From the NCBI RefSeq assembly GCF_030127145.1, contig NZ_CP126158.1, forward strand, positions 310,001-374,000: DNA of 64,000 nucleotides. The letters run 5' to 3'. Under the pieces are notes generated by a model. That model was not told the DNA's origin and made no database searches. It saw only the letters and a list, made by a program, of their open reading frames with translations. The position numbers and the translations under genes were made by a program. Each line of letters begins with the position of its first letter. Within the stretch, counting starts at the first letter, position 1. Of the stretch, positions 35,182 to 39,258 are shown in pieces. The stretch is from Halobaculum halobium. GTDB lineage: Archaea; Halobacteriota; Halobacteria; Halobacteriales; Haloferacaceae.

Positions 35182-35682
35182 TCAGTCGAGCCGCTCGCTC
35201 GTCTCCGCGTACCGCTCCCCGAGCGCCGTGTAGTGGGCGGCGGCCGCCCGCGTCGGCGGATCCTCCAACTCCGTCTTCGGCTCGGCCGGCACACCCGCCA
35301 CGAGCGTCCGCGGCGGTATCTCCGTCCCCTCGGTGACAACTGCGCCGGCGCCGACGACCGCCTCCTCGCCGACGCGTGCGTCGTCGAGGACGACCGCGTT
35401 CATGCCGACGAGCGCGCCCTCGGCGACGGTCGCGGCGTGGACGACAGCGCTGTGGCCGACCGTCACTTCCGGTTCGAGGACGGCGTCCTCGTGGAGCACC
35501 GCGCCGTCTTGCACGTTCGACTCGCGCCCGACGACGATCCGACCGTGGTCGCCGCGCAGTGTCGCGTTCGGCCAGACGCTCGCGCCCGCGCGCAGCTCCA
35601 CGTCGCCGATGACGACGGCCGCCTCGTCGACGTACGCCGAGTCGGCGACGTCCGGCTCCGTCCCGTCGAAGGATCTGATCAC
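35182..35682 (-). CDS. Gamma-carbonic-anhydrase-like left-handed beta-helix protein
   Basis: A 166-aa hexapeptide-repeat (LbetaH) protein. Turns such as [22 protein letters not shown] and [18 protein letters not shown] have the family's repeat period, and the metal histidines are in LRGDHGR, VLHED and VGHSAVVH. The C-terminal [10 protein letters not shown] helix is typical. GTG start 35680-35682 (MIRSFDG) is chosen since the ATG at 35684-35686 is in another frame. It may be a carbonic anhydrase or an acyltransferase-fold relative; the zinc His set favours the former. Divergent from cofD. Confidence 0.85.
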
Positions 35683-35788
35683 GCATGTCGGTGCGCGGCT
35701 CCGCCGCTTGAAGCTGTGGGGGCGTCGACCCGACGGACCGAACGATCCCAACGACAGCATACAAGCCCGCCGGCGTGCAAGCGCGGGC

Positions 35789-36781
35789 ATGGTCACGTTC
35801 CTCGCCGGCGGCACCGGCACGCCGAAGCTCCTCGACGGCGCCGCGGGCGTGTTCGCACCCGCCGAAACGACCGTCGTCGGGAACACCGGCGACGACGTGG
35901 AACTCGGCGGGCACCTCGTGTGCCCAGACATCGACACAGTCCTGTTCCACGGCGGCGGCGTCCTCGACACGGAGCGGTGGTGGGGGATCGCCGGCGACAC
36001 GACCGAGACCAACGAGGAACTCGACCGTCTCGCCGACGCCGCGGGACTGGACGGCGGTCCCCGCTACCTCCCCGACGAGGCGCAGATCACCGGGCGCGAA
36101 CTCGCTCGCTGGCGCCGGTTCTCGGGGGTCGCAGAGTTCATGGAGATCGGCGACCGCGACCGGGCGGTCCACGTCACTCGCACCTCGCTGCTCGACGAGG
36201 GGCGCTCGCTCACCGAGGTCACCCGGACGCTCGCGGACGCCTTCGGGCTCGACGTCGACCTGATCCCGATGAGCGACGATCCCGTCGCAACGATCGTCCA
36301 CACCGAGGACGGCTCCATGCACTTTCAGGAGTACTGGGTCGCGAACCGAGGGCAACCCGCTGTCGAGGACGTTGAGTTCCGCGGGAGCGACGCCGCGACG
36401 GCGACCGAGGCGGTCCGTACCGCACTCCGCGACGAGGTAGTGATCGGCCCCTCGAACCCGGTGACGAGCATCGGCCCGATGCTCGCGCTCGACGGCGTCC
36501 GGGAGGCGCTCGCGGAGACGACCGTCGTCGCCGTCTCGCCGTTCGTCGAGGACCGCGTGTTCTCCGGTCCGGCCGCCGACCTCATGCGCGGCGTCGGTCG
36601 CGATCCGAGCACCGCGGGCGTCGCCGACGCGTATCCGTTCGCCGACGCGTTCGTGCTGGACGACGAGGACGACACCGACCTCGATCGGCCGGTCGTCCGC
36701 ACCGACACGCGGATCGACGGCGCCGCCGACGCGGAGCGCGTCGCACGCGCCTGTCGGGAGGCGCTGGAGGTGGCTGAGTGA
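35789..36781 (+). CDS. cofD: 2-phospho-L-lactate transferase (CofD)
   Basis: Transfers the phosphoenolpyruvyl or lactyl-phosphate moiety from its GPP-activated form to Fo in coenzyme F420 synthesis. 330 aa. Motifs are [15 protein letters not shown] at the N-terminus, [14 protein letters not shown] (near 30), [21 protein letters not shown] and [16 protein letters not shown] (near 218). Start ATG 35789 is clear. Its stop overlaps the GTG of a Dus-like gene, followed by a CitG-like gene and DUF447, each also overlapping. F420 serves dehydrogenases and photolyase in haloarchaea. Confidence 0.95.
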
Positions 36782-37703
36782 CCGGGCCCGTCGCCGGCGA
36801 CCACCGCGGCGGAGAGAACGGCGGCGCCAACGGCGGGGAGAACAGCGGCGACAGTGGCGACGACGAACGCGCCGCTCGCTCGGCGTCGGCCGCCGACCTC
36901 GGAATCGACCCCCGCTCGCGCTCGCGAGCCTCTCCGGCGACTCGGATGCCGACTGGGCTCGCGCCGGCGACGACGACGCCGGCGCGGCGTTCCTCGGGGG
37001 AATCGCGCTCGACAGCGAGAGCCGGGAGGCCGCGCGCGCGATGGTCGCCGACCGCGATCGAACGGAGTTCCTCCCCGGGGATCCCCTCGCGTGGATCGGC
37101 GATACACTCGACGCGGTCGCGGACGCGGACCTCCGCCCCGGCGTGAACGTCCGCGCGACGAGCGCGTCGGCGATCCGCGACGCGGCCGCCGTCTGCGCCG
37201 AGCGCGACGCGATGCTCGAGGTGAATGCGCACTGCCGTCAGGCGGAGCTGTGTGCCGTCGGCTGCGGCGAGACGCTGCTGTCCGACACCGAGCGCCTGTC
37301 CGAGTACGTCGCCGCGGCGGCCGAGACCGGCGCCGACGTGAGCGTGAAGGTGCGCGCGGAGGTCCGCGGCGTCGACCTCGCGGACACGGCGCGGGCGGTC
37401 TCCGACGCGGGCGCCGACGCGATCCACGTGGACGCGATGGACTCCGAAGCGGTCGTGAGAGCAGTGAAACGCGCGGCCCCCGAGTTGGTCGTGATCGCGA
37501 ACAACGGGGTTCGCGACCGGGCGACCGTTCGAGAGTACCTCGCGAACGGCGCTGACGCGGTCAGCGTCGGCCGCCCGAGCGACGACGAACGGGTGCTCCG
37601 GCGCGTGTGCGCGGCCGTCCGCGAGCGGACCGAGGACGATGCGTCTGCAGACGGCAGTCGGTCAGTCGACGGCGACGCCGAGCGCCCGGAGGTGCCGCGG
37701 TGA
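36778..37703 (+). pseudogene. tRNA-dihydrouridine synthase-like FMN/TIM-barrel gene with one -1 frameshift
   Basis: A Dus-like flavin TIM barrel (NAHCRQAELCAVGCGETLL near its middle, VKVRAEV, HVDAMDSEAVVRAV, and the phosphate-binding IANNGVRDRATV with GADAVSVGR). The frame from the GTG at 36778, which overlaps the cofD stop, runs through DDERAARSASAADLGIDP, but the conserved PLALASLSGDSDADWARAGDD lies in a second frame from 36912. The shift is at a C5 run (36909-36913); one more C would give a 309-codon gene. In the second frame the first possible start is ATG 37041, in mid-barrel. So the gene is either broken or misread by one base. Substrate unproven. Confidence 0.85.
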
Positions 37704-38593
37704 CCGACGCGAGGACCGGCCGGGCTCGCCGTCGTCGCGGCCCGGCGGCCAACGCCGAGTTGGCCCTCCTGCTGGAGGTCGCCGGGACGCCGAAGCCGGG
37801 GAACGTCGACCGCGCGCGCGACCTCGCGGATCTCCGGTTCGAACAGTTCCTCGCGGGTGCGGTCGGCGCCCGGCCGGGACTGGCGCGCGCGGCCGCCAGC
37901 GACGCGGTCGGCGACGCGTTCGAGACGGCGGTCGCCGGGATGAGCGAACAGTCGGGCGGAAACACGCAGTTCGGCTGTCTCCTCCTGTTGACGCCGCTCG
38001 TGCGCGCGGCGGCGGCCGATGACCGCGCGCTCTCGCCCGACGGCGTATCCGCGGTCTGTGAATCGACGACCGTCGATGACGCCGCCGGCTTCTACCGGGC
38101 GTTCGAGCACGTCGACGTGGCGGTCACCGACCCGCCCGAGGGGATGGACGCGCTCGACGTTCGCCGCGGCGCCGACGCGGTCCCGGAACTCCGCGAGCGC
38201 GGGCTGACGTTGTTCGACATGCTGCACGAGTCGGCCGCGCCGATCGACAATCGGGGGACGCCCGGCGACGCAAACGCTCACGAGTGGGTCGAGGGGTTCC
38301 CGCGGACGTTCCGCGCGGCCGACGCGATCCGCGCGGACGACGGACCTGTCTCGGACCGCGCGGCGCGGGCGTTTCTCGACCTGCTCGCGGAGGCCGAGGA
38401 CACGCTCGTCCGGACGCAACACGGCCCAGAGGTCGCTCGTGAGGTGTGCGATCGCGCGGCGTCGATCGAGTCGGTCGAGGAGGCGGACGCGTGGGGAGAC
38501 GAGTTGGTCGAGCGCGGGATCAACCCCGGGACGACCGCCGACGTCACGGCCGCGGCGCTGTTCGTCGCGCTCGAACGCGGGGTGGCGGTGTGA
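37700..38593 (+). CDS. Triphosphoribosyl-dephospho-CoA synthase family protein (CitG/MdcB-like)
   Basis: A 297-aa protein of the CitG/MdcB family, which attaches ribose-triphosphate to dephospho-CoA to build citrate lyase and malonate decarboxylase prosthetic groups. Visible motifs are LLLEVAGTPKPGNVDRARD (near 27), EQSGGNTQFGCLLLLTPL and the C-terminal GINPGTTADVTAAALFVA. Haloarchaea lack citrate lyase, so another role is implied. GTG start overlaps the Dus-like stop; the stop overlaps DUF447. Family members are also found with methanopterin-linked genes, so a role in cofactor synthesis is a reasonable guess. Confidence 0.85.
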   Translation: MTDARTGRARRRRGPAANAELALLLEVAGTPKPGNVDRARDLADLRFEQFLAGAVGARPGLARAAASDAVGDAFETAVAGMSEQSGGNTQFGCLLLLTPLVRAAAADDRALSPDGVSAVCESTTVDDAAGFYRAFEHVDVAVTDPPEGMDALDVRRGADAVPELRERGLTLFDMLHESAAPIDNRGTPGDANAHEWVEGFPRTFRAADAIRADDGPVSDRAARAFLDLLAEAEDTLVRTQHGPEVAREVCDRAASIESVEEADAWGDELVERGINPGTTADVTAAALFVALERGVAV

Positions 38594-39258
38594 ACGATCG
38601 CGGGCCCGGCTCCGAGTCCGACCGGGAGAACCCCGCCGACGGCGGCGACGACGCGACGGCCGACTGGCCCGTCGACCTCGCTGGCGTCACCGAGTCGGTG
38701 GTCGCGACGCTCGGCCCGAATGGGCTGTGGAACCTCGCGGCGCTCGGCCTCCACGCGCCCGAACGCGACGGCCGCGACCCAGACGCGCCGGTGCGCGCGC
38801 GGACGTGGGGACGCACCCGAACGTGGCGAAACTTCACCGAACGCGGCGGCGGCGTCGTCCAGTTCGTCGCCGACCCGCGCGATTTCGTCGACGCCGCGGC
38901 CACGGTGCGCGAAGCGGAGCGCCCCGTCCTCGGGTCGGCGGACGCGTGGGCCGAGGTGACCGTCGAACGCGTCGACGACGGCGAGCGCGGCGGGACGGAG
39001 TGGGTCGACTGGCACCTGCGGGTGGCGGACGCGGCCGTCGAGCGGACGGCCGTTCGGACGATCAACCGCGGATTCGGCGCCGTGATCGATGCCACGGTCG
39101 CCGTCTCCCGGCTCGACGTGCCGGCCTACGACACCGAGGAACTGCTGGCGCGGCTGGCGTACTTCGCGGACGTGGTCGAGCGGTGCGGCGGGCCCGCCGA
39201 GCGCGAGGCGTTCGACCGGCTGCGCGAAGTGAGCGGGTGGGACGACCGCGGTCGCTGA
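38590..39258 (+). CDS. DUF447-family protein
   Basis: A 222-aa protein with SVVATLGPNGLWNLAALGLH (near 38), TWGRTRTWRNFTERGGGVVQFVADP and GTEWVDWHLRVADAAVERTAVRTINRGFGAVIDA split over the split-barrel fold. DUF447 resembles flavin-reductase-like FMN-binding proteins. The GTG overlaps the CitG-like stop. Last gene of the cofD set. The family occurs in archaea and methylotrophs near pterin-cofactor genes, which suggests but does not prove a reductase role in F420 or a related cofactor pathway. Confidence 0.8.
   Translation: MNDRGPGSESDRENPADGGDDATADWPVDLAGVTESVVATLGPNGLWNLAALGLHAPERDGRDPDAPVRARTWGRTRTWRNFTERGGGVVQFVADPRDFVDAAATVREAERPVLGSADAWAEVTVERVDDGERGGTEWVDWHLRVADAAVERTAVRTINRGFGAVIDATVAVSRLDVPAYDTEELLARLAYFADVVERCGGPAEREAFDRLREVSGWDDRGR

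Follow-up and report, generated by a model that had tools for sequence, protein, structure and literature searches.

The CitG-like and DUF447 genes of haloarchaea as candidate survivors of a methanopterin biosynthesis operon

Introduction

What do a CitG-like and a DUF447 protein do in haloarchaea, and why do their genes stand behind cofD, a gene of coenzyme F420 synthesis? The question is raised by a stretch of 64,000 nucleotides from Halobaculum halobium (NZ_CP126158.1, positions 310,001 to 374,000; the whole stretch is here called the window), where cofD and the gene of a Dus-like barrel are followed on the + strand by a CitG-like gene (37700..38593, 297 aa) and a DUF447 gene (38590..39258, 222 aa). 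A preliminary description of the locus had the pair coupled to F420 synthesis and suggested that it may modify or recycle F420 or make a related cofactor, citrate lyase being absent from haloarchaea. The suggestion of a related cofactor fits what is reported here. Methanopterin is the one-carbon carrier of methane-making microbes and bears an alpha-ribofuranosyl phosphate on an aryl-ribitol. Sequence comparison makes it very probable that the CitG-like and DUF447 proteins belong to the families and the pathway of methanopterin (tetrahydromethanopterin, H4MPT) synthesis, and their genes are best explained as haloarchaeal survivors of an H4MPT biosynthesis operon, that is, as a retained side-chain module. 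The genes themselves are of known kinds, and it is their retention and co-loss in haloarchaea that appears to have gone unnoticed. A literature search, with subscription journals outside its reach, found no paper joining CitG or DUF447 with methanopterin.

Families of the two proteins

The CitG-like protein matches PF01874 with 202 bits, and it could be taken for a true CitG/MdcB, an enzyme that produces the prosthetic group for an acyl carrier protein. It has its Pfam family, its fold and the core residues KPG, NT..G, D234 and PG..AD in common with these triphosphoribosyl-dephospho-coenzyme A (CoA) synthases, but it reaches only 19 bits against TIGR03125 (cut-off 272) and 28 bits against TIGR03132 (cut-off 282). 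A tree of 66 CitG-family proteins sets five CitG/MdcB-type members apart (100/99), four of them validated against NCBIfam, whereas the haloarchaeal proteins form one clade (98/93) inside an archaeal H4MPT-type branch. The clade also has residues of its own, N35, D127 and N275, which are present in 8/8 haloarchaeal sequences and stand where CitG/MdcB mostly have L, V and S. True CitG/MdcB identity was rejected on the equivalog scores and the tree position, and the chance that it is correct is very slight indeed. The predicted structure (pLDDT 92) matches 3h9p from Archaeoglobus.

The DUF447 protein of the window is recognized in both its halves (PF04289/PF20766; DUF447_N 66 bits, DUF447_C 70 bits). 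Its predicted structure (pLDDT 90) has the split-barrel fold and matches 2iml from Archaeoglobus (Z 22.0) and 2nr4 from Methanosarcina (MM1853; Z 21.8) and, over a shorter stretch, 2ptf (MTH_863; Z 14.7). All three solved proteins contain flavin mononucleotide (FMN) and are alike in fold, although they differ from the window protein in sequence (23-28% identity). On this structural model, the protein is predicted to be an FMN oxidoreductase.

Distribution among genomes

RFAP synthase is the first enzyme of methanopterin synthesis. The homologue encoded in the genome of the window scores 144 bits, above the subfamily cut-off of 113.5, and its distribution was compared with that of the pair, of CofD and of the H4MPT-type one-carbon enzyme Mch in a control set of 14 genomes and in 145 genomes of the haloarchaeal class. 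DUF447, which is found in 140/148 Halobacteriota genomes, occurs among the controls in Methanocaldococcus jannaschii, Haloferax volcanii, Sulfolobus acidocaldarius and Methanosarcina acetivorans. Exactly these four match the RFAP-synthase subfamily TIGR00144, so that Haloferax volcanii has homologues of CitG, DUF447 and RFAP synthase alike; CitG is present in the same four genomes plus E. coli. Three of the four have a CofD match above the cut-off, and Sulfolobus acidocaldarius has none. Thus, DUF447 tracks RFAP synthase, not CofD, among the controls. For Sulfolobus, work cited in PMC3261824 describes a modified folate that bears an aminophenyl-tetrahydroxypentane unit, which is the side chain of the methanopterin type.

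The haloarchaeal profiles point in the same direction. All 145 genomes have CofD and Mch, while CitG and DUF447 are each found in 142 and the RFAP-synthase homologue in 141, so that about 97% of the sampled species keep the module. The same three genomes (G008, G060 and G119) are without CitG, DUF447 and RFAP synthase alike. These count as two loss events, as G008 and G060 belong to one genus and the genes are kept by the other sampled members of the genus of G119. The joint loss of CitG and DUF447 is cheap, as the two genes are neighbours. RFAP synthase, in contrast, is unlinked: in the genome of the window it lies at C1:1255983, about 0.9 Mb from CitG at C1:347745, and its co-loss with the pair is therefore not a single deletion. 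Assuming independent losses, the chance that both pair-less lineages fall among the three genomes without RFAP synthase is about 3e-4. Since cofD is kept in the losers, the co-loss pattern ties the pair to RFAP synthase and not to F420.

Gene neighbourhoods outside the haloarchaea

The same families were then considered in their bacterial and methanogen contexts. The GTDB genome scan used bacterial DUF447 sequences only, as the all-group alignment was too diverse for scanning, and the best 80 matches are therefore all proteobacterial. They come mostly from methylotrophs, and one or more H4MPT or methanofuran genes lie within 10 kb in each of these 80 best loci, with MfnB in 74, DUF6513 in 66 and AfpA in 39; CofD was found within 10 kb in 0/80. 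When 24 of these bacterial genomes were tested, CitG was present in 24/24 and CofD in 0/24. On a plasmid of Azospirillum oryzae, CitG and DUF447 lie inside a full H4MPT/methanofuran cluster, together with fae, mch, mtdB, RFAP synthase, formyltransferase/hydrolase subunits (fhc), a dihydroneopterin aldolase, an AfpA-type flavoprotein, DUF6513 and MfnB. AfpA and the dihydromethanopterin reductases DmrX/DmrB are members of one family (PMC6193120).

The methanogen order is barrel, CitG, DUF447, often followed by a DmrX/AfpA homologue. CitG falls within the 1.5 kb flanks of DUF447 in 27/30 non-haloarchaeal loci; parts of the barrel protein are found upstream of CitG in at least 15/30 archaeal loci, and an AfpA homologue stands beside DUF447 in nine archaeal loci.

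These data bear on the proposal that the pair modifies or recycles F420. What speaks for it is that in the window the pair is joined to cofD by operon-like overlaps and that the genes are close together in most haloarchaea; by a count made by eye, roughly 124/142 of them have CitG and cofD no more than about 5 kb apart, and the linkage thus reaches beyond the genus. G134 and many genomes of family f4 have lost it, however, most of the exceptions falling in one family, and in the methanogen locus L052 CitG is not next to cofD. Moreover, the pair is present without CofD in 24/24 methylotroph-type genomes and in Sulfolobus acidocaldarius, while the three haloarchaea without the pair keep CofD together with the Dus-like barrel. 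The coupling to F420 synthesis expected in the preliminary description was therefore not borne out, either by the phylogenetic profile or by the losses, and F420 modification or recycling was rejected on distribution as highly improbable. A different place for F420 is suggested by one-carbon metabolism. F420 is the hydride carrier of Mer, which would explain why the pair is found in the neighbourhood of cofD: F420 would be the hydride partner of the one-carbon pathway, and not the substrate of the pair. In Haloferax volcanii, the locus numbers of cofE and mer are consecutive, HVO_1936 and HVO_1937 (PMC8305020).

A proposed role for the module

In the proposed mechanism, the RFAP-synthase homologue would join phosphoribosyl pyrophosphate (PRPP) to a benzoate, and a dihydropteroate synthase (DHPS) would couple the product to the pterin. 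The DUF447 FMN protein would carry out a reductive step, for which our guess is that the aryl ribofuranose is opened to give the aryl ribitol. Next, the CitG-like protein, acting as a (tri)phosphoribosyl transferase, would take an alpha-5-(tri)phosphoribosyl group from ATP and attach it to the ribitol hydroxyl, as CitG does with dephospho-CoA, and the reaction would leave an activated phosphate for the next coupling. Such chemistry has a precedent: CitG forms an alpha-ribosyl bond from ATP, and the leftover triphosphate drives the next coupling (CitG/CitX). To our knowledge, the ribosylation step of methanopterin synthesis has been assigned to no enzyme, and a relative of CitG that is confined to H4MPT contexts is, given the chemistry of CitG, a natural candidate. 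For the exact reactions of the two proteins, confidence is evenly divided at best.

A variant of this scheme leaves the role of the CitG-like protein unchanged and gives DUF447 another reductive step, either reduction of the pterin ring or a flavin- or F420-coupled reaction. Split-barrel flavoproteins are versatile, and the haloarchaeal loci examined are without DmrX, so that the variant may be entertained. In methanogens and many methylotrophs, however, DmrX/AfpA coexists with DUF447, which must have another job there and is for this reason most likely not the pterin-ring reductase. The variant is thus possible, but we regard it as somewhat doubtful.

Several observations weigh against the retention of a methanopterin-type pathway in haloarchaea. 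Folate is described as their one-carbon carrier, methanopterin-specific enzymes are described as absent from them, and HVO_2628 has been doubted as an RFAP synthase (PMC8305020). A large FolCP-type folate enzyme (DHPS) is present in 47/47 haloarchaea tested, and folate is therefore presumably made too; on this result the idea of a simple complement, in which genomes with the module would have lost folP, was rejected. The DHPS-like enzyme of methanopterin makers (DUF6513/TIGR00284) passed its cut-off in 0/47, and the haloarchaeal loci examined yielded no DmrX/AfpA gene. A second DHPS, which speaks in favour of the pathway, exists in 43/47 haloarchaea tested, but G134 and G174 have the pair and not this enzyme, and in G119, one of the losers, it is found without the pair. 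As for RFAP synthase, the only homologue tested against the equivalog model NF040726 (from G217) scores 177 bits, below the cut-off of 328; D19 is N in the haloarchaeal homologues; and in G245 the CitG/DUF447 pair is present with no RFAP synthase detected. Finally, Mch is kept in the genomes that lost CitG, DUF447 and RFAP synthase, and it therefore does not need the product of the module.

Being out of step in these three genomes, the second DHPS is weakened as a fixed partner of the pair. One such paralogue (L038:8935-10080) was seen to carry about 120 extra C-terminal residues with no Pfam match.

Part of this evidence would be expected if the module had been inherited from methanopterin makers and repurposed, so that it now makes a different ribosylated compound, such as a modified folate or a cofactor of another kind, and not a methanopterin-type one-carbon carrier. 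The change at D19, the absence of the DUF6513 enzyme, the persistence of Mch and the replacement of the DUF447 motif NAAPMG by N.AALG in most haloarchaea all speak for such a course. Against it, the signature residues of CitG are fully kept, and CitG, DUF447 and RFAP synthase still travel together. In favour of a methanopterin-type pathway, the RFAP-synthase homologues keep R26, and the HVGLGSGTQ (PRPP) loop is found in nearly all of those aligned. Their gene neighbours in five haloarchaea include no common pathway gene. In the Methanothermobacter enzyme, changing R26 to alanine abolishes activity, whereas partial activity is left when D19 is changed to N (PMC6787355). Repurposing seems unlikely, and the balance tips modestly towards haloarchaea making a methanopterin-like one-carbon carrier beside folate. 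The more specific proposal, that most haloarchaea have a second one-carbon carrier with an aryl-ribitol and alpha-ribosyl-phosphate side chain and that the CitG-like protein is the missing methanopterin glycosyltransferase in archaea and methylotrophic bacteria, is advanced tentatively, as falling a little short of probable.

The proposed retention of a methanopterin-type module contradicts the published absence of methanopterin-specific enzymes in haloarchaea, and the present sequence evidence argues against the doubt about HVO_2628 (both PMC8305020). Haloarchaea are taken to have exchanged methanopterin for folate (PMC8305020). A module that is widely kept, and lost together with an unlinked first enzyme, means either that this exchange was never completed or that there is a second pterin. 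The module also provides a concrete candidate, with precedent chemistry, for the ribosylation step of methanopterin synthesis, which is testable in the genetically tractable Haloferax volcanii.

The locus in the window

The locus opens with cofD (35789..36781, + strand, 330 aa), the gene of 2-phospho-L-lactate transferase in F420 synthesis, which passes TIGR01819 with 386 bits (cut-off 257). The Dus-like TIM barrel follows (36778..37703, + strand), and GTGA overlaps at 36778, 37700 and 38590 join the four genes. Coordinates and family matches thus confirm the four genes and three junctions of the preliminary description, including the overlap at the start of the Dus-like gene; the frame of this gene, on the other hand, is not intact. 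The GTG at 36778 starts a frame that breaks near 36910-36914, where the congeneric genome G212 reads GACCCGCCGCTCG and the window reads GACCCCCGCTCG, a one-base deletion after which the remaining barrel is open in the shifted frame and conserved. The deletion may have arisen very recently by mutation, or it may be an error of sequencing. The listed completeness of the window's genome is 95.2%, below that of its congeners, and the deletion at 36905-36920 could for this reason be a sequencing error. Compared with G212, all four genes are under purifying selection, with dN/dS of about 0.19 for cofD, 0.29 for the Dus-like gene, 0.20 for the CitG-like gene and 0.28 for DUF447.

The barrel matches Dus (PF01207) with 29 bits and the archaeal MJ0144-type model TIGR00736 with 125 bits, below the cut-off of 218.7, and it is related to methanogenesis marker 9 proteins in their N-terminal half. 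In the methanogen G061, the barrel is fused to the methan_mark_9 domain (TIGR03277, 168 bits; methanogen barrel at L052:7886-9031); this Cys-rich C-terminal domain had no match in the haloarchaeal barrels scanned. Two motifs of the haloarchaeal barrels, AHCRQ with its cysteine and VKVR with its lysine, are reminiscent of Dus enzymes. In the three haloarchaea without CitG and DUF447 (loci L040, L041 and L042), cofD is followed directly by the barrel; since the barrel stays with cofD when the pair is lost, its role is separate from that of the pair. In L045 (G018) and, by coordinates, in G193, CitG comes directly after cofD with no barrel between.

Upstream of the locus, a gamma-carbonic-anhydrase-like hexapeptide protein is encoded on the - strand (35182-35685), divergent from cofD. 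From 39376 onward, a + strand gene starting MAIKPKYVK resembles the ribosomal protein S17e gene of L059, and an S17e-like gene downstream of DUF447 recurs in L047. L059 itself lies on the 987 kb plasmid CP031304.1 of Natrinema thermotolerans, which carries cofD, barrel, CitG, DUF447 and ribosomal protein S17e in near-chromosomal order.

Comparison with known methanopterin loci

The haloarchaeal locus can be set beside two known arrangements. The first is that of the methylotroph H4MPT islands (orf19-orf20-afpA-orf21-orf22 and related; PMC3615186, PMC5020050), which were likened by gene family and not by orf number. These islands contain a CitG-type gene and DUF447 among mch, RFAP synthase, fae, AfpA and MfnB, whereas in haloarchaea the pair stands behind cofD, and DUF6513, AfpA, MfnB and the formyltransferase genes are not alongside. 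The second is the methanogen operon (for example G061, L052), with which the haloarchaeal locus shares the order barrel, CitG, DUF447, and from which it differs in that cofD is added in front, the barrel is without the Cys-rich marker 9 domain and DUF447 is without a DmrX neighbour.

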